A stretch of DNA of 64,000 nt from Pseudocercospora fijiensis CIRAD86 (taxonomy: Eukaryota; Ascomycota; Dothideomycetes; Mycosphaerellales; Mycosphaerellaceae). The notes below the pieces were generated by a model. The model was not told where the DNA came from. It did not search any database and was given only the letters and a program-made list of their open reading frames with translations. The DNA lies in contig NW_006921533.1 in assembly GCF_000340215.1 (NCBI RefSeq), positions 373,616 through 437,615 of the forward strand, read 5' to 3'. The translations under genes and the position numbers were made by a program. Below, in pieces: positions 7,516 to 22,199 of this stretch. How positions within the stretch are numbered: position 1 is the stretch's first letter; each line of letters begins with the position of its first letter.

Positions 7516-8172
7516 TCAGCGCATGACTGGTGGCCTGGCTTCCTTATTCCATTTGACTCTTGAGCACAACCACTCGACAGCCTCTTTGACTCCGGTACCG
7601 GTCAAGGCACTCAACGGCAGGACTCTGCTGTCTCGCACGTTCTGCCCCTTCTCGCCTTCGAATACCTTTCTGACTAAGCCTTCTTTGATCCTCACAACCT
7701 CTACGCAGTCTTCTCGATCTTGCTTGTTTGCGAGTACCAGCACGGGTACTCCTTCGGTCGATTCGTTTTGCAGCACGTCTTCCAACACCAACTTGCATTC
7801 TCCCAGTCTCCCTTCGTCGTCTGAAGCACCTTTCTCCGAAAGACGCGCAATGTCGGCGTCGCCAATGTCCGTGCTATCAATCACGAAGACAATCGCGTGA
7901 CAGCTGCTGTAGTAGCTGTGCCATAGATTTCGCAATGAATGTTGCCCACCGACGTCCCAGATGCGCAGGTAGAGCTCTGGCATATCGATCAAGCTGACAT
8001 TTTGGCCCACTGTCGGTACAGTCTTCAGCTTCGCTTCATGTGCTGGGTTGTACAATGCCTTGATCTGTTCGAGCAGGGTCGTTTTGCCGGCATTGTCGAG
8101 TCCGAGCAGGAGAATCGAATATTCTTCCTTGCTGGTCGCGTGGAGGTAGAGTGACTTGACGAGATGATACAT
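7516..8172 (-). CDS. arl3: ADP-ribosylation factor-like GTPase, ARL3/ARFRP1 type
   Basis: Small GTPase of the Golgi pathway; in yeast Arl3 recruits Arl1 and GRIP golgins to the trans-Golgi. The start is set at ATG 8172 because the product then begins MYHLVKSLY, matching the conserved Arl3/ARFRP1 amino end. The longer frame to 8250 opens only at GTG. The 218-residue protein has the P-loop GLDNAGKT (24-31), switch region PTVGQN, WDVGGQ (72-77) and NKQD (149-152), then SALTGTGV near the end. There is no Gly2, so it is not myristoylated; Met-Tyr fits a NatC acetylation start as known for Arl3 (inference). An acidic Asp/Glu-rich insert follows the VIDSTD strand. No intron is visible. Divergent from the eS25 gene, 253 bp apart. 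Confidence 0.92.
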   Translation of the reverse strand: MYHLVKSLYLHATSKEEYSILLLGLDNAGKTTLLEQIKALYNPAHEAKLKTVPTVGQNVSLIDMPELYLRIWDVGGQHSLRNLWHSYYSSCHAIVFVIDSTDIGDADIARLSEKGASDDEGRLGECKLVLEDVLQNESTEGVPVLVLANKQDREDCVEVVRIKEGLVRKVFEGEKGQNVRDSRVLPLSALTGTGVKEAVEWLCSRVKWNKEARPPVMR

Positions 8173-8425
8173 CTCTGCTATCGGTGATCGACGTATCGCA
8201 TTGCTGGTGAAAGCCTCAGTCAGCGAGACGCGGTTTGGTTGTACAGACACTTGGCTGGATTATCTCCGTAGAGCTAACGGCATGTGATTGCGAGCCTGAA
8301 TTCGTGCCTGACTTTCTCACTTCACGTGACGACTGCCCACTTGGCTTGGCGCTCGAAAATGGGAAGTCACTTCGCTTGATGTTGGAGCATCGACTTCTCC
8401 GACCACTGCACAAGACACAGCAACC
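8173..8425. promoter_or_regulatory. Shared divergent promoter of arl3 and rps25
   Basis: The 253 bp between the two start codons must hold both promoters. A CACGTG E-box lies at about 8323-8328. A pyrimidine-rich stretch just precedes the eS25 start. Regulatory assignment is from position only. Confidence 0.5.
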
Positions 8426-11968: not shown

Positions 11969-12627
11969 TGTCAATGACGTGAAGAGGCATAGAATGTGAC
12001 TCGGCCTCATTAAACAAGTAAATAATGTGAAGGCTTGCCAGGCGTTCAAGTAATGAGAGGAGCTCTAAACACGTATAAGTTGTTGGTCGTTCTAGCTCCG
12101 CATCCTTTGGCGTAGGAGCTGCAGCCTTGTCGTTCTCGCATCAGGCATACATAATGCAGTCGTGGCAGCTACAGTACAAGTCAAAGCATTTGATAGATGA
12201 CCATTGGTCTATCTACCATCAGGCAGAAGGCTTTGTTCGTGGCATGCACAGTGCATACATGCAATTCTCGTGGTAACGCGAAGAAGCGCACCAAGAATCG
12301 ATTCTGCTCATTCGAGGCATGCTTGGCTTGGCGCTGGTGTCTGCGCTGAGCGTCCCGAAGGCAGGTGCATCCTTGCTCATAATGCACAACTCATAGACCA
12401 TGTCTAGCCTTCTTGTAGCCAATTTATCTATCCTCATCTGCTCATGAAAGCGCGATAGCATGAGGGATGCCACGCGATCGGTACCGCTCTCGTTCTGGCA
12501 ACAAGCCGCGCGAGCTGTGCCGCAGGACCTGGGTGGTACACAGCATTTGGCTGGTTTGATCCATTACTGTTGTCTTCGGTCCAGGGGATTGTAGAGAACT
12601 TTGGAGGTCATAAAGTCCAAAAATGTC
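11969..12627. other. Intergenic, no supported gene
   Basis: Promoter side of the F-box-like gene and 3' flank of alb1. Only short overlapping frames; no domain or repeat seen. Confidence 0.5.
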
Positions 12628-13265
12628 TCAAGTAATGTCCTCCAAATCTTCCGGCTGAGCGTGCTGCGACACCCAAGCCGGTGCTCCAGATATTGCTTGA
12701 GCTGGCTTTGATGGTTCTTCCTCAGCTCCAGACATCTCTGTACTTCGAATCGGCAGTGGCTGCTCCAAATCTGGCACCATCTGTTCGTCGCCGTCGCGAT
12801 CCCGTTCCTCCATGCCACTATCCTCTCTCAGCTTGGCAAGATTTGTCGCAAGAGCATCCCGCTGCGCCTCCTTCACAGCGACCAATTTGCCATTCAGCTC
12901 CTCCCAGTCCGGATTCCTGCTCTTGACAGCCTTTCCTCGCTTCTTACTATCCGCGATCTTCTTTTCCAGCTTTTCAGCATTTTCGTCGGCTCGCTCCATC
13001 CCCTTCTGCTGGCGCAGCTTCTGAGCTCTGGTAAGCTGCTGTTTCTTTTGCTTCTTCTGGATGCCTGAGTTCTGCACGCTGTGTAGCCATGGCTTGTAGT
13101 CGCTTTGCTCAGCAGGAGTCTTGCTTGTGAGCAGGTCCTTTGAAGGTGGTGCTTCACCGCGGCGGGCAGCGCGAGAGTGCACTGAGACTTCTGCGAAAAT
13201 GTTAGAGGTGTTCTCATAACGTTGTGCGATTTTAAATATCTACCTCGCTTCTTTGCCTTGGCCAT
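12628..13265 (-). CDS. alb1: Ribosome biogenesis protein Alb1
   Basis: Two exons: 13244-13265 (MAKAKKR plus one base) and 12628-13190, joined over a 53-bp intron (GTAGAT donor, TCTAAC branch, CGCAG acceptor); 194 residues. After splicing the protein reads VSVHSRAARRGEAP, NSGIQKKQKKQQLTRAQKLRQQKGMERADENAEKLEKKIADSKKR and SRNPDWEELN, the known Alb1 pattern. Alb1 works with Arx1 on pre-60S particles, from nucleus to cytoplasm. The protein is highly charged with a long coiled helix and an acidic C-terminal tail. The tiny first exon carrying MAKxK is typical of the family in ascomycetes. Confidence 0.85.
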
Positions 13266-13868
13266 ATCCGCTATGCTGGAGTGTGGATGACCATGTAGCA
13301 GCACAGGAAATGCAGGTTCCAGAAAATGTCGAGCCGGAGGAAAGCTCGGCTCAAATCCGGCCGAAATATTTCCGCAAGGTTCACTCCCTTTGCACTGGAA
13401 GCCGTCTTGTGAACCAACATGACCTTTCTCGATGCTCGACGCGAAGTCAGCGAAGCCTACGACGTATTAACGCTCTCAATGGGCACTTGAACTCTCCAAT
13501 ACAAGCCAGCTGGAAGCCTAGGCGTCAAGCCAGCATCGATAACAGTACGGCCATGACTTGGACGGCTATGGAGAAGAGCCCGCGAATGCACGCAGACACA
13601 AGCTTGAGGTTCCATCGACTAGGAATGATTTACTAGTGTTCATGATGGTCATTAAATGATCATCATCATTGGTGTCTAGCTGGGTGTGGTATACAAAAAT
13701 CGAAGGGTTCGGTATCCACCCAAACGCCGCGAATAAAGCATTCCCACGCCATGGACCAGTCATTTGCAAATGCTCTCGCAGGATACGACTGAGCCTCAAA
13801 GCTTCCATGCACCGCCAATGTTGCATCCTGTGCCAGCTGCTTGGAGCGTCCCCAACCCGGCTGACTCT
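13266..13868. other. Intergenic, no supported gene
   Basis: A plus-strand frame at 13253-13636 overlaps the alb1 start and has no domain. No repeat seen. Confidence 0.45.
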
Positions 13869-14258
13869 CTACTCGAAGATGGAATCATGCTCAAAGGCTA
13901 TACGGCTGCTGTCCCTCTTGTAAACCGCATCGGGATCAAACTCGGTAGTCCCGTCTCTCCTGTACACAGCATCTGAGGCACAGAGTCAGCATTCGATCCA
14001 ATTTGTTGCTTTGCGAGGCTCCATACCAGGATTAAACTCGGTCGTACCATCTCTCCTGGTCTTATAGACAGCATCAGGATCGAACTCAGTGGTACCGTCT
14101 CGTCTTGAAAGCGCATCGGAAGCTTGTGTATTGTCTTTGATGATCTTTAGCTGAATGTTTTCGAACCTCGAAATCGGCACGTTCTTACGGGGTTCAATGA
14201 CGACCGGCGCGGCCATGGCCACTTGGATCAACGCAAGCGCAAGCATGAGGAAGGTCAT
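13869..14258 (-). CDS. Secreted repeat precursor, candidate dikaritin-type RiPP precursor
   Basis: Two exons: 14027-14258 (ATG at 14258) and 13869-13972, joined across a 54-bp intron (GTATGG donor, CTGAC branch, CTCAG acceptor) lying inside an Asp codon; 111 residues. A signal peptide covers residues 1-17 (cleavage after AMA). A leader to residue 51 follows, then three cores of DGT-TEF-(D/N)PDAVY at 54-65, 70-81 and 84-95. The cores are preceded by Arg-Arg and followed by Lys-Thr-Arg-Arg, Arg-Arg and Lys-Arg, the sites expected for Kex2 plus Kex1 trimming. A 14-residue tail ends in acidic residues. Each core has one Phe and one Tyr, residue types cyclised by UstYa oxidases in known dikaritins. 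It is head-to-head with the UstYa-like gene at 15277. Product unknown; no known core matches from memory. Confidence 0.78.
13914..14105 (-). repeat. Three tandem core-peptide repeats in the precursor gene
   Basis: Units run 14105-14064, 14057 through the intron to 13962, and 13961-13914, each RR plus a 12-residue core. Comparing codons by eye, units 1 and 3 differ at eight synonymous positions with identical protein. Unit 2 differs from unit 1 at six synonymous positions and one replacement (Asp to Asn). This is a protein-level repeat, not a recent DNA duplication. Confidence 0.85.
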
Positions 14259-15276
14259 GATGGGCACTTTTGATTTGGTCTTACTCGGCAAGTTTGGTTG
14301 TTGCAATGCTCAAGTCGGACGGTGAGTGTGAAGATGAAGGTTCCAACGGAGCATCGGACAGTGAGTGTGAAGATGAAGGTTCCAACGGAGCATCGGACAG
14401 TGAAGAAGATACATAAGACATGCGGACCGCCAACGTCTACAAGTCTTATCTGAATAGCTCTCCCTCTAGCCGACCTTGCCACGATGGCAGACTCCACGCC
14501 GCCCACAACCAACTGGTTACATCGCCCTGATCGGCAGAGATTCGCGCTGACACGGCCCCAACCAAAGATGTAGCGGAAGTCCACTACCCACCTAGGAACA
14601 TGCGTCTGGAGCGCGTGGCCATCCCAAAAAATCCCAAATGACTTCAAGGCTCACCTACCTGGTTCAGCTTCTCCGCACTGGTAGCTGCATACCACTGTTA
14701 CGGCAACGGCGGCATTTAGAATACTTCTCAACGACATCCTGCATCAGGAACAAACAACGGGGATCTGAGGACTCGCGTGTGAATGGCGTCAAATAAGCAA
14801 AGCTGATCAATCCGACAGAAATATCCCACCGAGGCTGAAGTGGGTAAGGTGTAGCTTTGCTGGACGAAAAAGGCACAGCTTTTTCAAATGTGGCCAATGG
14901 CTGAGGGCAAATCGTGTTGATCCTTCGGTTTCGATCACGCAAAACTTGCCGTCATCGAATCCCTCGGTGTGCAACAGTCCCTGTTGCAACTTCCATCCAT
15001 GCCGAATCTGCCAACCGGAAAGTGAGAAACAGCCCGAAGGATCCAAGAGGATCTTCCGAATATGCCGATCTGAAGGATTCTTAGACTTCGCGCCGGTCCG
15101 CTTTATGCTTCTCCAGCAGCGTGCGGCTATGTCCAGCCACATGGTCATCAAACGGCTTAGGGTTGTTGCTCAGAGTTCGAGCTCGTGGTGCGGGCAAGAG
15201 ATGCAGGGGCAAAGTCGTGTAGCGGAGCTCGATTTCCAAGCTGCTAGGCATCGAACACACCCCAGACACAGTAAAG
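14259..15276. promoter_or_regulatory. Divergent intergenic region between precursor and UstYa-like gene
   Basis: The 1,018 bp between the two start codons would carry both promoters. It holds a 39-bp tandem repeat (14316-14403). Minus-strand frames at 14664-14942 and 14807-15151 have no recognised domain; I do not call them genes. Co-regulation is inferred from the head-to-head arrangement only. Confidence 0.45.
14316..14403. repeat. 39-bp tandem repeat, about 2.2 copies
   Basis: Starts of the unit (CGGAC) are at 14316, 14355 and 14394; the first two units differ at about one base. It lies 60-145 bp upstream of the precursor start codon. Because 39 is a multiple of three it also reads as a short plus-strand ORF (ATG at 14308) rich in Asp, Glu and Ser. 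Confidence 0.8.
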
Positions 15277-16097
15277 ATGGAGCTCGATGAGGAGATCCCG
15301 TTTCTTGAAGAAGAGAAGAGGAACAGACATCCGGAACTGGGAAGTGAGAGATCAGGATTGCCCAAATGCCCAAGAAAACAGCAAAGATGGCTATGGATAT
15401 CTGTCGTCACGAACGCGATACTCCTCAAAGCATGTCTCTTTCTGGTGTTCTTGCTGGCGTTTAAGCAGACGAATGACGATACATCCACAATTCCTGAACC
15501 ATACTGTAAGGCATAAATTACTGAAGTGACAGCCAAACTCTCCTAACACTCCATCCAGCTCCAGTCAACAATGCAATCGAATACGAATACCGCAGAATCG
15601 TCGCAAATGACACAACAATGGTCGGAAAACCAAACCCAGCCTGGGAATCCCGCATGTCCAACCTCCTCAACAACACCTTACTCTCAATCTCCCAAACCGA
15701 ACTCGACCTCGCCAACACAACCTCCATACCCTTGAAATCATCGACCCGGCAGTACGCCGGCGGTTTAGGCGTAGCACACAACATCCACTGCGTCAAAAAA
15801 CTCAAACAATTTTTGTATTTCCATCATTTCTACCCAGAAGTCGAAATCGGGAGTTCACATTATGAGTATCTGCAATATCACGCGGATCATTGTTTGAATT
15901 TCTTGTTGCAGAGCATGATGTGTCATATGGATACGAGTTTGTATACGCTTGTTTGGGTGCCTGGGGAGGATGGGGAGACAATGGTTGTGAAGCATCGAGA
16001 ACCGGGTGTGCAGAAATGTGTGAATTGGGACAAGGTGCAAGGGTGGATGCGGGAGAGGGCGGTGAGTAGCGAGATGATGGTTGGACCGGGTGGGTAA
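15277..16097 (+). CDS. UstYa-like (DUF3328) oxidase
   Basis: Two exons: 15277-15505 and 15559-16097, with GTAAGG donor, CCTAACAC branch and TCCAG acceptor; 255 residues. A charged cytosolic head is followed by a membrane helix at about residues 39-62, then the lumenal domain beginning EPYSPVNNAIEYEYR. The two HxxHC motifs of the family are intact: HNIHC at 150-154 and HADHC at 184-188. These His residues are thought to bind copper in the UstYa/UstYb enzymes that oxidise and cyclise ribosomal peptides. The intron position, just after the PYS motif, is shared with the gene at 20781-21844. It is head-to-head with the repeat precursor. UstYa-like proteins also occur in other secondary-metabolite clusters, so the substrate is inferred from context. 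Confidence 0.9.
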
Positions 16098-17057
16098 GTG
16101 AAGTGGTAGAAAGATCACGTCACATGTCCACGCAGCAAGAGATTCCAGCGTTCAGCAAGCGCTGTTGGAGGTGAAGGCCGGTGCCCGACGGCCAAACGAC
16201 CAGAAAGGCAGAAAGCCAGACGGCGGCACTGTCCCAGTTGGCAGTGCCGGAAGCTGAGGATCGAGGCACATCGCACTCATCACCACTTTCCTCGCGATGA
16301 AGGACGCGGGCGGCGGCACCCTTACGGCCATACCATACCAGCATACTGTATACAGAAAGCCGCTCTACGGAAGAATCCTTCAACTTCCCTTTGCCCAGCA
16401 AAGTTGGTACACATCTTGCTATAGAGAAAAGCACATGCAAAGTGGTCCCGGACTTACGGTGACCCTCTGTAGATGACTATCCGGGGTTGCGTCAGCCCAC
16501 TTCACCCCTCTTACTATCCAGCCTTGTCTCGGCTTCCTGTATATGGCAGTTTATGCACAAGAGCCTCTGTAGGTCCCCGCGACCGCGGAGTTGAGTGCGA
16601 CTGACGAAACCCCGGATAGGAGTCTGGTATACGAGTTGACTGTTGACGTTCCGTGCCCTGTGTCATCATCATAATGTATACAGGGTACCACCTGCATACA
16701 AGAAGATACCAACATCCCCAATGATCAGAAGTCTCAGCGTTGAGGTTTGCGTCCGCAGCACAAAGTTTGAACTTTGCATTCGACTGGTCATAGACGGCGC
16801 CGGAACGCCGCAACAAGCCCTGCGAGATACTGAAAGCTGCATGGCTACTCCTTCCCCTATGTGAGAGCTCTTCGTGTTCAACGTGTTGGACTTTGCAGAT
16901 GCTATCTTCCCCTAGTATCAGCGGTCGTAGCAACAGAGCATCCGCGGAAGGATCGCTTATGCCGGCCGTGCATCGAGTCATCGACCCTGTATCAAAATTG
17001 CAACAAGCCATGTCAATGCTCGTCTGGAATGGTACTTACGCGAGCATCTGTCAGCAA
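16098..17057. other. Intergenic, no supported gene
   Basis: A minus-strand frame at 16514-17011 (165 codons) has no domain, no start context and an unlikely composition. Nothing else is supported. Confidence 0.45.
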
Positions 17058-17136
17058 GCAACAACTAGTAATCTTAACCAGCAACAAATGGTAATCTTAG
17101 CCGGCAACACCTAGTAATCTCGGCCGGCAACAACTT
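17058..17136. repeat. 23-bp tandem repeat, about 3.4 copies
   Basis: Three full units begin GCAACA at 17058, 17081 and 17104, and a fourth starts at 17127. Each contains (A/G)GTAATCT followed by CC(A/G)GC. Copies differ at two to five positions. Confidence 0.8.
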
Positions 17137-17139
17137 GAG

Positions 17140-18240
17140 AATGATCTGAGATTATGCGCCAAGGCTACAGAGGCTCTTGGGCATAGACTGCCATATACAG
17201 GAGCTTGCGACGAGAGTTATAGCAGGTGTCTAGAGCGAGTGCGAAATAACGATCAGAATTCTGCCTTAGGTTGTGTAGGAGGCTAGGCGAGGGTTCAATT
17301 GTTAAAGGGCGCTCTCTTACAAAATCTAGCTCGGCCTCTAATTGGTGGAAATCAAAAAGAAACGTTACGTGCCGAGCTACTAATCCTACTATTAGTAGTT
17401 CTAGAAATCAAAAACACAAATTACGTGCCGAATGCGATAATATCATAATACAACGACGACAGCAAATACGGCGGCGGCACAATGTATAGCAGCGACAGAA
17501 TGCACGGCGGCGACAGAATAATAATGCACGGCGACACAATGGTAATACTTCAGAGCCACGCGACAATTCGCACTCTTCGCTAGACTATATAGGCAAGTTC
17601 CACTGGCTCTGAGAATATCCTTGTAATGCATACCTACTGTCCCCAAGGTTCTAGAACTATCGCAAGCTATAGACGGACTTTTGTTGTCCCCTTTCACCTA
17701 ATCGAGGTAGAGCTTCTGCGATCTGTCAGCTTCTACCATCTAGCTTCTGCGATCTGGGCACAACAAGACACGGTAACCCCCACTATTGATATACAGTATC
17801 AACTAGCATAAGCTCGGCAGTTAGTTCAAAAAAAAGATCATCGCTAGATATTGTCATATTGATCGATCTTGATCGATCAAGGCTAGGTTACAGAGACAAC
17901 GTGGAAATCACGACAGTGTCTGGACGTATCGGAAGGCTACCAATTTCTCCCTATTCTGGGCTGGCAAGGGCCTAGGCCAATTGACACCTCGGCTTGACTG
18001 TTACGCTGTTATATTCTAGCCCTTCGATTCGTGTATACGCTGTATGCTGCGCTTGCCGGGTGGTGAGCCGAACTTCCGGCCTGGTGAGTTCACCAGCATC
18101 CTTCACTGCAACTAACTAGGCTGCGACGTTCGACAATACGACGCGGACTTCGCGGACATTCACTTCCAGCCTGGAAAGCTGCAGGGGGGCCACACCGGCA
18201 CATCTCGAAGCTTCGGAACCTAGCTAACACGGCTGGTCTA
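17140..18240. other. Probable degenerate transposable-element relic
   Basis: Composition changes here to CTAG- and TA-rich sequence with no long frame. Two related segments (about 17340-17373 and 17400-17432) share GAAATCAAAAA and TTACGTGCCGA. A plus-strand frame reads arginine/glutamine-rich repeats like a retrotransposon gag end. A CTTCTGCGATCTG motif occurs twice (17712 and 17746). No element boundary could be set. Confidence 0.35.
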
Positions 18241-18582
18241 CCAGTTGTTCACCCCGTACATTACATCATCCTCGAGTGGTAGCAATGCATTGGTGTTCGA
18301 GTCGACATTCGTCCTACGCCTACAGGTCTCGAAATGTATACTTCACCATTCGAATCGACCGTCAATTGCTCTTCGAAACAGAATAGTAATGACGGAAAAC
18401 GAGTTAAGTAGCTATAGACAGACCATCGAGTTGAATTATTATACATATAAACTCAGGAGACAAAAAAACAGGGCGTGATATCTTAGAACTCGTCTCGCAA
18501 ACCAGCCTTCCTCTTTTAGGCAGTGCAAGATATTTGAAACCCTTGATATAGTGAAGTTGAGCATGCTAACTCGTGGAGCTGT

Positions 18583-18640
18583 ATACATACATATATATAG
18601 CTCTCTCTATCTCTCTCTTCCTCTCTTCCTTTCGTTCTAT
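18583..18640 (+). promoter_or_regulatory. TATA box and CT-rich tract of the small secreted protein gene
   Basis: A TATACATACATATATATAG stretch at 18582-18600 is followed by about 35 bp of almost pure C/T. The ATG lies about 100 bp beyond. TATA followed by a CT tract marks strongly expressed fungal genes. Confidence 0.55.
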
Positions 18641-18702
18641 AACAACAATATATCATCCTTTACGATTGCAAAGCCCAAGCACAACACAAGCAAAAACACA
18701 AG

Positions 18703-18948
18703 ATGCAGAACTTCTCGATCACCCTCCTCCTCACTCTCCTAGTAGCCTCCTTTACTAGCAATATCTTCGGTCTTGCTGCTTGCGGAGAGGCCGCTCCAAA
18801 CTGCTGCGGTAGTGGGTAAGTAGTATACCTCAGGAAGACGCACTGTAGTCGAGATCGTTCGTAAATTTACTAATGAGCCATCAGTTCATGCTCGTGCCAT
18901 GCTTATAAGTGTTCTCAGCTAAGCCTTCCGTCCTGCAGCGGCTGCTAG
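18703..18948 (+). CDS. Small secreted cysteine-rich protein, effector candidate
   Basis: Two exons, 18703-18815 and 18885-18948, flank a 69-bp intron with consensus GTAAGT donor, TTACTAAT branch and CAG acceptor; product 58 residues. A clear signal peptide (MQNFSITLLLTLLVASF...) ends near Ala25. The mature part of about 33 residues has eight cysteines spaced C-x7-CC-x4-C-x-C-x4-C-x7-C-x2-C and ends in Cys. That density implies four disulfides and an apoplastic protein. I do not recognise the family. A TATA box plus CT tract upstream supports expression. It lies between the two UstYa-like genes, so a link to that pathway is possible but unproven; an effector role is inferred from size, secretion and cysteines. 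It is too short and split for ordinary ORF calling. Confidence 0.8.
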
Positions 18949-20780
18949 GTATGAATTTTTGATCCGCAGCGTCTAGGCAGTGCTGACCAACTCTAGACTC
19001 GGCATCGTTCTATGAACAAATTTTTGTCGTACTATGGCAGGAACACACGGATTGGAGTTTAGGAGGCTCGTGGCCAACTGAATGAGTCCTTACAGCTAAC
19101 GGACGCTTCCGTTTGCCGAGTGGTTATTCTCGGTATTGTGCTTACCTGGGAGGATGCTAAGGAAATGGGGAGCAGGAAGATTGATGATGTGAATCTCTTT
19201 TCTGTATTTAGGAACGACGAGATGCACTTGTTGCATCGAGGCGCTCAACTGTGATTGAAATTAAACCAACCCTTCGTTCTCCTGAGACCGCATGACTCCA
19301 TTCATTCATTCATTCATTCGATCATACCTCGATGCAGCTCCCTTGCGTGCGGGAGACGCTTTGCTCTCATCTACCTCCTTGCAAGGAGGAAAGCTGTAGC
19401 AAATTCCCTGGTCAAAACTCTTTACACGAAGCACTTTCGCCAGTGATGATGTGAGACGATACCATGAGAGCCGTCTTTACTTCCGGCCGAAGACAACCCT
19501 CACCTGTGGTCGACGGCATTTGCCGCCCTCCTGCCTCGCACCTGGCTGTCGTCGCAGTGTTCGAGATTGCTGTTCGACGCTCTGCCTCGCTGTCGTCGTA
19601 GTTTACTGCTTCAATCACCTCCTCGGTGCTTAACATTGTCCTCAGGTCGCTCGTTGATGCCTTGTGGATCATCTTGTCACAATCTCGTTCGTCCCAGCAG
19701 AACCAAACAATGTACTTCACGTTCTGCTGTCTCTGGCAACACTGACAAAGTGGGCTCGGACGGTCGAGGGGCCTCTCTTCTCGCCAATTCGTCGTTGAGG
19801 CTAATATGTTCCGTCAAAGCTCATCGTAACGGACAGACGTCACCCTCAGAAGATCCTGCTCGAGCTCTGTCTCCACTCAGACCTCCAGCGGAAGGCATAA
19901 GAGGCTCCGTTGGAGCCGTTCTTGCAAAACAGGCACCTACGGAGCGTCTGAAAGGAGTCGAGGGAGATCAGAAGAGTCCAGATAACAACACAGTCAAGCC
20001 GGACACGCGCGACATCGACCAGCCTACGTCGGTGACTTGCGCAAGGCACAGGAAGAGCAGAAGGAGATGGATGTAACATTACACCGTTCGACGCTCTCCT
20101 CTCCTCATCGTCCAATCGATCCTGTCAGCTACCTCCTTCTCGAGCTCTTCTTGTAGACTTCCTTTCACCCTCCACCTTCCACTGTAACTTCCATCTCCAT
20201 TTGACGTTTGACGTCAACTTTAGCGTCGATCGGCACTTTCGGGATCTTCTGCATATACCTAGTCTAGTGTGTAGAAGGAGTGGGCGCAAGGAGTTTAGTG
20301 TCGATGGCGTGGATGTCCGATATTGAACCGAATGGTTGGACGGAAAGAGCTGAGCCTACCTATCTGCCACGCTAAGAAGCACGCTGAGAATGGTTGGAAA
20401 GAGCCCATCTACCACAGAAAAAAGCTCCTTGCGCTCAAAACAGCAAGGGACTAGCTGGAATAGAGATGGCCTGGCAGCTTACACACACACGTTTTTCAAC
20501 CAGGCTCGAGCCTTCGATGGATCGAGATGTGGCAGGAATACAACTCGTAGGCCTTGTGACTTACCCTTCGATGGAGGATCAAGATTTGGCAAAAATACAT
20601 GGCGTACACCTTACGACTTTCCCTCAGAAGTCCTGTCGATCCATCCAGACACAGACAGCTTCCATCCACCTTCGATATCTCATCTTGAATCCTTCACATT
20701 CACAGTAGGTAGCATATATCATTCACATCGCCAAACTACACATCGCTAAAGCACACATCCCCATCGCAAAACTCACTCCC
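18949..20780. other. Long intergenic stretch with weak frames
   Basis: Contains an ATTC microsatellite (19300-19319) and overlapping frames on both strands (for example 19567-20076 plus, 19412-19720 minus) without domains or signal peptides. A plus-strand frame at 20390-20749 holds two imperfect 18-residue repeats (see findings). No gene is called. Confidence 0.45.
19300..19319. repeat. ATTC microsatellite
   Basis: Five tandem ATTC units, 20 bp. Confidence 0.9.
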
Positions 20781-21844
20781 TCAAACCCCCACCCACCCAT
20801 CACTCCCCCTCCCCAAAAGGCCCAAAACCCCCACCCCACCCCTCTCAACAACAAACTCCTCCAACGGACTAGGGATCGCCCTTTCATCCGCAAAACTTTT
20901 AAAACTCTCCCAATTCACACAACGTCTTTGATGCCGCGTAAATCCATGCAAACCAGTCGGAGCTTCGGCGTCCCAGACCACCGTATTCAACGTAAGGTCT
21001 GGTTTACACATGAGACCTTGGCGGAGGACTGAGAGGCAGTGTTCTGGAATAGAAGAGCGAAGGTTAGGATTAAGATGAGGGTGTATGAGGGTATGATATG
21101 AGGAGGGTGGTTGGATGTGTGGAGGCTTACTTACCCCAATGTGGAAGCGTCAAACGACCAGAGTTCAAGAGGTCGGGGTAATGGGATTGATGGTGCATTT
21201 GGTATATACGTTTCTAGACGAATGACCAACTATCATTAGCCTTTAACTTCTATGGAAGGGTGATTGTGTTGATGAGGTATTTACCAAACAATGCAGTTGA
21301 TGGAAAACTTCAAAATATCCCACATAACCCTCGGAATTTTTTAATTTGACGGAGGTTTTGTTCATGGTTTGCATTTCGCGTTTGGAGATTTCGACCATGC
21401 TTGGTGCGAGGAGGTTAGACCATGCTTCATCGACTTCCCGTCGAGGTAAACCCAGGAACGGACTGTCTTTTGGTTCGAGATCGAGGGTTCGGAGTTCGTG
21501 TTTGATGATGGAGTGGGCAGGAGCTGTGAGGTCACACGGATGTCAGTTGAAGTCGAGGAATTCCGATATGATATGTTCTAGTTCTACTCACAGTATGGGT
21601 CTTCGACTTCATCTCCGGCCAAGGGTACATGTACTTTGCTTGTTGAGCTTGGAACTTCGCTATAGGTATTGAGAACGAAGAGTCCGACATTGGCAGCGAT
21701 GAATGCCGCGTGGATAACGAAGAGGATGTAGTGGAATGTGCTCGAGTTGGTCCATGTTCGTCGTTTCGGAGGGTTTTGCGGAACGTATTGCTCGTCGACG
21801 GGTTCAAGAAAAGGTTTCTCTTCATCGTGCTTGGTAGTCGCCAT
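20781..21844 (-). CDS. UstYa-like (DUF3328) oxidase
   Basis: Four exons: 21592-21844 (ATG at 21844), 21285-21523, 21135-21213 and 20781-21043, with donors GTGAGT, GTAAAT and GTAAGT; 277 residues. A charged head (EEKPFLEP) precedes a membrane helix around residues 35-58. The lumenal domain opens DPYSPAHSIIKHE. Family motifs are intact: HQLHC at 159-163 and, across an exon junction, HWEHC at 189-193, followed by LRQGLMCKPDLTL and RRCVNWESF. The predicted role is oxidative tailoring or cyclisation of a peptide, anchored in the secretory membrane system. Intron 1 splits the same PYS codon as in the gene at 15277-16097, so the two are true homologues. It sits 230 bp from the end of a MULE transposon. 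Confidence 0.9.
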
Positions 21845-22199
21845 GATTGTTGATGAGGAGTAGCAGTAATTGATCGATTGATGATTGACTCGTGCAATAC
21901 TCTGGTCTGGACAACAACGTGGGTGGTACAAGATCATATGCAATGCACTCGTGGCTCTTAGGATACTTGCTCCTCCATGAGTTTCCAACTATACCTTGGC
22001 CATCCTCTTGTGACGCCAACGGATCTGCTCCAACAATACATGCAGGGCACACCATTTGGCAAACCGTATAATACCTAAAGCGCTAGGATACGCTACGCCG
22101 GCAAGTTCCTGCCGCAGCGGACTCGGTGAGATATAGAAGTCCGCGCCGTAGTATACGTGACTATAGAAAACGTGATCTCGTCGTCGCTACGCGTCGTAG

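Follow-up and report, generated by a model that had tools for sequence, protein, structure and literature searches.

The 64-kb stretch of Pseudocercospora fijiensis DNA analysed here (hereafter the window) contains a small gene whose predicted product carries three copies of a 12-residue repeat, together with two nearby genes of the UstYa/DUF3328 family. An earlier note on this DNA had placed the repeat gene at 13869-14258 without assigning it a strand; it lies on the minus strand and comprises the following features:

14027-14258, minus strand: precursor exon 1, with the ATG at 14258, a hydrophobic N-terminus (predicted signal peptide) and the leader
14135-14188, minus strand: possible second intron, in the leader, 54 nt and frame-preserving, which fits the P. 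musae model AC579_3888
14064-14099, minus strand: core 1, within exon 1
14027-14051, minus strand: first part of core 2, within exon 1
13973-14026, minus strand: precursor intron of 54 nt, inside core 2, with GT..AG ends and a CTGAC branch motif
13869-13972, minus strand: precursor exon 2, with the end of core 2, core 3, the tail and the stop codon TAG
13962-13972, minus strand: end of core 2, within exon 2
13920-13955, minus strand: core 3, within exon 2

Joining the two exons yields a 111-amino acid protein with a hydrophobic N-terminus, a leader and three 12-residue cores that begin at residues 54, 70 and 84. The cores, in order DGTTEFDPDAVY, DGTTEFNPDAVY and DGTTEFDPDAVY, share the consensus DGTTEF(D/N)PDAVY and are arranged as RR-core1-KTRR-core2-RR-core3-KR. 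The earlier note had proposed this plan, namely a signal peptide, a leader and three 12-residue cores that appear once a 54-nt intron is removed and that are framed by RR or KR, and the two-exon frame bears it out: RR precedes each core, and KTRR, RR and KR follow in turn. Splicing is predicted from the sequence; the intron splits core 2 and, if retained, places an in-frame stop inside itself. The N-terminus is strongly hydrophobic (score 2.73, by a hydropathy heuristic alone) and can be read as a signal peptide. Excision of the possible second intron, which has no CTRAC-type branch motif, would give a 93-amino acid precursor whose alignment with P. musae AC579_3888 contains one 1-residue gap; the cores are unchanged whether or not it is spliced. 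The sole Pfam match of the precursor, to AbfB, fell short of the cut-off (13.1 versus 22.8 bits) and was rejected as a domain.

Automatic annotation had been expected to miss this gene, an expectation that failed: a protein database search found it annotated as MYCFIDRAFT_133152, a 97-amino acid model that joins the exons at the identical intron and has identical spliced cores. This model begins at an internal methionine, Met15, and the predicted signal peptide is therefore missing from it. As the survey outlined in PMC7329392 starts from SignalP predictions on annotated proteins, MYCFIDRAFT_133152 would be expected to drop out of it. In this way a single misplaced start codon can deprive a gene model of its signal peptide and leave such genes hidden from secretome-based screens.

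The repeats were evaluated with a six-frame scan for any 8-mer that follows a dibasic site and recurs within 60 amino acids with at most one mismatch. The sole such pair in the window is the precursor, and no match was found in 60 first-order Markov sequences, each 64 kb like the window; the repeated pattern is therefore not due to chance. Repeats 1 and 3 differ at 8 of 36 nucleotides, all of them synonymous, whereas repeats 1 and 2, like repeats 2 and 3, differ at 7 of 36, comprising six synonymous codons and one non-synonymous change. When the same number of substitutions was placed at random, none of 200,000 trials kept every residue for the pair 1/3, and at most one residue was changed in 74 of 200,000 trials for the pair 1/2 and in 84 of 200,000 for the pair 2/3. 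The peptide is thus what is conserved among the repeats, and selection acts on the cores. A protein-level search of the P. fijiensis genome recovered the core only at the precursor locus, in two parts that correspond to the exons. Position 8 is Ala in each of the three P. musae cores and Pro in those of P. fijiensis, a parallel change that points to concerted change among the copies.

Two UstYa/DUF3328 genes lie to the right of the precursor:

15277-16097, plus strand: UstY1, 255 amino acids, exons 15277-15505 and 15559-16097, with the motifs HNIHC and HADHC; PF11807 in the spliced protein at E 2.2e-34
20781-21844, minus strand: UstY2, 277 amino acids, with the motifs HQLHC and HWEHC; PF11807 in the spliced protein at E 7.3e-38
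21592-21844, 21285-21523, 21135-21213 and 20781-21043, minus strand: exons of UstY2, with predicted joins

UstY1 and the precursor are divergently oriented across a gap of ~1.0 kb, and UstY2 lies 6.5 kb from the precursor. Each encodes two HxxHC motifs and, by inspection, an N-terminal hydrophobic segment. Genome-wide, 46 PF11807 matches merged into 37 genes at 27 loci. The share of the genome that has one of these genes at a distance of 8 kb or less is 0.64%, and the share that has two is 0.13%, so that by position alone the precursor would stand beside two UstY genes with one chance in about 770. DUF3328 has been suggested as the class-defining dikaritin enzyme, with the double HxxHC as a marker (PMC12048977), and in CctR, an enzyme of C-H bond hydroxylation, this double motif makes up a two-copper site (PMC12435403). 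The family also carries out hydroxylation and desaturation (PMC12435403; PMC10512285). CctR is membrane-associated and shares the double motif with UstY1 and UstY2, but it works on a non-ribosomal cyclic peptide (PMC12435403), whereas UstY1 and UstY2 are known from sequence alone. A PDB sequence search with P0004, a relative of UstY1, returned no match, and an AlphaFold model of P0004 built from 9 sequences (pLDDT 48.8, pTM 0.33) was too poor for fold comparison. Elsewhere in the genome, a Kex2-type P-domain (P_proprotein) is encoded at C8:2374995-2375255.

Relatives of the precursor are widespread. A first protein search found 3 proteins, the precursor included, and a profile built from these found 35 proteins at E<=10, of which 34, the precursor and 33 others, were at E<=1.3e-4. 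An organism name is attached to 25 of these 33, representing one unplaced Xylariaceae and 16 genera: Pseudocercospora, Septoria, Cercospora, Podospora, Aspergillus, Cytospora, Xylaria, Astrocystis, Paecilomyces, Hypoxylon, Ustulina, Poronia, Triangularia, Monosporascus, Cladorrhinum and Biscogniauxia. These genera belong to the Dothideomycetes, Sordariomycetes and Eurotiomycetes. The P. musae relative has three cores in a layout like that of P. fijiensis. A sexual role, sought among mating-type-regulated Podospora genes, was set aside: Pa_4_4500, the guessed counterpart of QC761_404500, does not occur in the searched text of PMC3125171.

Cores were counted in the spliced P. fijiensis protein and 34 further sequences, 35 in all, including the weak match P0043 (E 4.2), one degenerate copy (P0013) and two seeming intron read-ins (P0003 and P0032). 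In the latter two, the last core ends at DGTTEF and is followed by unrelated sequence, as if an intron lay within the core. The 35 sequences contain 91 cores, with at least two in 33 of them. Across the 91, D1 is found in 91, G2 in 90, T3 in 84, T4 in 91, E5 in 89, F6 in 87, D7 in 85, P8 in 67 and D9 in 85; conservation at the first positions is partly a search artefact, since the search requires shared words. Arg stands before 89 of the 91 cores, a dibasic pair stands before 67 of them, and position 13 is Lys or Arg in 76 of 81; a hydrophobic N-terminus was scored by the heuristic in 30 of the 35 sequences. N-termini and basic sites were not search criteria as such, although the profile does reward basic sites. 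The cores are kept, whereas leaders and tails differ among the relatives. The check on homologues proposed in the earlier note thus came out in its favour, as the relatives retain both the repeated core and basic cleavage sites, with the Septoria and Cercospora relatives departing from the strict dibasic plan in having a single Arg ahead of the core.

There are also hints of linkage in other fungi. A protein search with UstY1 found 8 relatives, three of which lie on a contig equal in size to that of a precursor relative (Septoria linicola, 2612956; Cercospora zeae-maydis, 241103; Xylaria longipes, 95120); equal size indicates at most one and the same contig, not closeness. In Xylaria longipes, the precursor and UstYa relatives have consecutive protein numbers, 584092 and 584093. 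The other five match no precursor relative in contig size, including that of P. fuligena, the closest.

Taken with the gene structure, the repeats and selection on their cores, the P-domain gene and the relatives, the presence of two double-motif UstYa/DUF3328 genes 1.0 and 6.5 kb away gives good support to the view that this is a dikaritin-type locus, evidence that the earlier note, which had named the gene a dikaritin candidate, did not use. We consider it probable that P. fijiensis has here a compact RiPP locus of this type, whose precursor would be expressed, spliced, cleaved, oxidised by UstY enzymes and secreted. Entry into the ER, Golgi Kex2 cleavage, trimming and UstY oxidation are the established dikaritin pathway (PMC9233826, PMC10512285). 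By analogy, the signal peptide would take the precursor into the ER, Golgi Kex2 would cleave after RR or KR, and a carboxypeptidase would trim the Lys and Arg residues. The products would be three copies of DGTTEF(D/N)PDAVY, of which the first might retain a KT tail. Calculated [M+H]+ values of the unmodified peptides are 1329.5481 for DGTTEFDPDAVY, 1328.5641 for DGTTEFNPDAVY and 1558.6907 for the form with KT; each oxidative bond would lower these by 2.0157 and each hydroxyl would raise them by 15.9949. One or both of the putatively membrane-bound UstY copper oxidases would then oxidise the core by crosslinking, hydroxylation or desaturation, perhaps at Phe6 or at the C-terminal aromatic residue, and the peptide would be secreted, probably in leaf infection.

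The known dikaritins, ustiloxin, phomopsin, asperipin-2a, epichloecyclin and victorin, have the plan predicted here, namely a secreted precursor, repeated cores flanked by Kex2 sites and UstYa/DUF3328 genes (PMC10512285, PMC9233826). In contrast to these, P. fijiensis has a different core sequence and only three cores, and most relatives lack Tyr. The usual mark of a dikaritin locus is an UstYa/DUF3328 gene with two HxxHC motifs alongside the precursor, and two such genes are present. Among all 45 open frames of 150 amino acids or more in the window, which were scanned with Pfam, we saw no tyrosinase, methyltransferase or secondary-metabolism peptidase domain, nor any further tailoring domain typical of known dikaritin loci, unlike in ustiloxin and phomopsin but as in asperipin-2a. 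Such genes are not required of dikaritins, because the asperipin-2a cluster and an Ustilaginoidea ustiloxin cluster have no peptidase gene (PMC12048977). Victorin is nearest in one respect, being reported as closed through Phe (PMC9233826).

Which residue would be modified is narrowed by the family. Tyr is the usual crosslinked residue in dikaritins. The P. fijiensis cores have both Tyr12 and Phe6, whereas across the family Tyr occurs in 24 of the 91 cores and is lacking from the other 67, so an ether through Tyr is improbable as the modification of the family as a whole; the aromatic position that is retained is Phe6. The suggestion in the earlier note that each core carries aromatic residues for ring closure is borne out only in part. 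A tentative reading, which we hold to be possible and no better than that, is that the motif DGTTEFDPDxx(F/Y/L) is one old, nearly invariant secreted peptide, preserved in distant Ascomycota, pathogens and saprotrophs alike, modified by UstY copper oxidases without need of Tyr, for example at Phe6, and serving as a signal or binding a target instead of being a fast-changing toxin.

The same lack of Tyr, and the retention of the core over many genera, as would befit a signal, could also mean that the peptides of a Kex2-processed repeat protein act unmodified, as linear hormone- or pheromone-like signals; UstY1 and UstY2 might then act on another substrate. In the survey of PMC7329392, 78% of the known Kex2-processed repeat genes lack a DUF3328 neighbour. 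We regard this alternative as unlikely, given the improbable position of two UstY genes adjoining the precursor, the linkage hints in three other species, and the report that pheromone-type repeats almost never occur with DUF3328 genes (PMC7329392). Ascomycete alpha-type pheromone precursors do resemble our predicted precursor in their signal peptide and Kex2-cut repeats, but they have a Trp-containing repeat and as a rule no DUF3328 neighbour (PMC7329392), whereas our cores contain neither Trp nor Cys and have two such neighbours; the precursor does not qualify as an alpha-type mating pheromone.

Far less probable is a repeat-containing secreted protein that acts whole and uncut, as an effector-like or wall protein. 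In another plant pathogen such precursors were mistaken for secretory proteins (PMC9632046), so the two kinds resemble each other, and a search of the PDB by sequence paired P0002 with the repeat protein Scone-E (E 2.2e-6), a match of which no single stretch passes and which, together with a match to a PQQ protein (E 0.0063), we put down to repeat coincidence. The basic residues ahead of nearly all cores, the constancy of the cores between variable leaders and tails, and the UstY neighbours all argue against it. A chance reading frame or dead gene, to which the small size of the gene and the GC content of 38-46% from ~22 to 38 kb, adjoining the locus, might point, is hardly credible in view of the Markov result, selection on the cores, the relatives in P. 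musae and elsewhere, and the open frames of the UstY genes.

On the reading we prefer, a dikaritin-type locus, the earlier description of the precursor as undescribed is half right. The class is already known: PMC7329392 reports 7,878 Kex2-processed repeat proteins (KEPs), 22% of them (1,758 genes) with DUF3328 nearby, and requires at least three tandem repeats of 8-100 amino acids between KR, KK, RK or RR, such as the three 12-residue cores found here. The core turned up nowhere in the printed text searched and is unusually widespread. Neither the core motifs nor six locus tags occurred in a full-text literature search of 5.39 million papers, which covered article text as distinct from figures, supplements and subscription papers; the motif is likewise absent from the printed text on KEPs, and is not among the conserved motifs in the list of Le Marquer and others (PMC6339444) as far as that text gives it. 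The dikaritins described up to 2022 number just five (PMC10512285). With one precursor, two UstY genes, exact predicted masses and a Podospora relative, the locus offers a small test case, and a mostly Tyr-free core would reveal the substrate range of UstY enzymes.

Published expression data provide a lead. PMC5006380 reports 11 DUF3328 genes that are higher in infected banana leaf than in medium, and none with the reverse pattern; nine of the 11 sit in four clusters, on scaffolds 12, 2, 9 and 3, with one to three in each. UstY genes at P. fijiensis loci number at most 3 on C12, 3 on C9 and 1 on C3, so the scaffold-2 cluster should hold two. UstY1 and UstY2 are the only UstY pair on C2, and relaxing the threshold brought up no others on C2, C3 or C12. 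By this count, which presupposes that contigs and scaffolds bear the same numbers and that the set of UstY genes is complete, our locus is probably the scaffold-2 cluster, and may thus explain one infected-leaf DUF3328 cluster of hitherto unknown role. A 2022 review (PMC9002641) mentions the DUF3328 induction, and the terms RiPP and Kex2 do not appear in its searched text.

The dibasic-repeat scan was also applied to 30 UstY loci (L001-L030), six of which were positive (L006, L007, L016, L019, L023 and L029); L019 and L029 represent a single site, and the precursor gene itself recurs as L031 and L032. Repeats after dibasic sites were seen at L019/L029 (C3, ~3.92 Mb; TQEDVAKP, four copies), L023 (C3, ~2.71 Mb; LPQW(A/D)NSS, four copies) and L006 (C5, ~5.67 Mb; (D/E)PYSPKTE, two copies), making these three loci candidates for further RiPP precursors.

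The surroundings of the locus include the following:

14315-14392, no strand: a 39-nt sequence present twice in tandem (97% alike), in the interval from the precursor to the divergent UstY1
12631-13239, left of the precursor: Alb1, by Pfam
7519-8259, left of the precursor: Arf-type GTPase, by Pfam

The tandem copies may belong to a control region shared by the precursor and UstY1. Between 13 and 38 kb, UstY1 is the sole Pfam match among frames of at least 150 amino acids; the exons of UstY2 are shorter, and it was scanned spliced. Pfam matches at 40-52 kb are a ubiquitin hydrolase, a mitochondrial carrier and Med6, and those at 59-63 kb a short-chain dehydrogenase and a Zn2Cys6 regulator. Low-GC blocks (~38-46%) at ~22-38 kb and 52-59 kb contain no frame of at least 150 amino acids and resemble mutated repeat-rich stretches. 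An Rfam search of 12500-22000 gave no matches. Between UstY1 and UstY2, a predicted two-exon gene on the plus strand (18703-18815 and 18885-18948) encodes a 58-amino acid Cys-rich protein with a hydrophobic N-terminus. Finally, 16535-17202 is bounded by 38-nt terminal inverted repeats that are 95% complementary, with 592 nt between them; its full length occurs once in the genome, with matches of just 40-48 nt at 13 further sites, and it looks like a lone MITE-like element.
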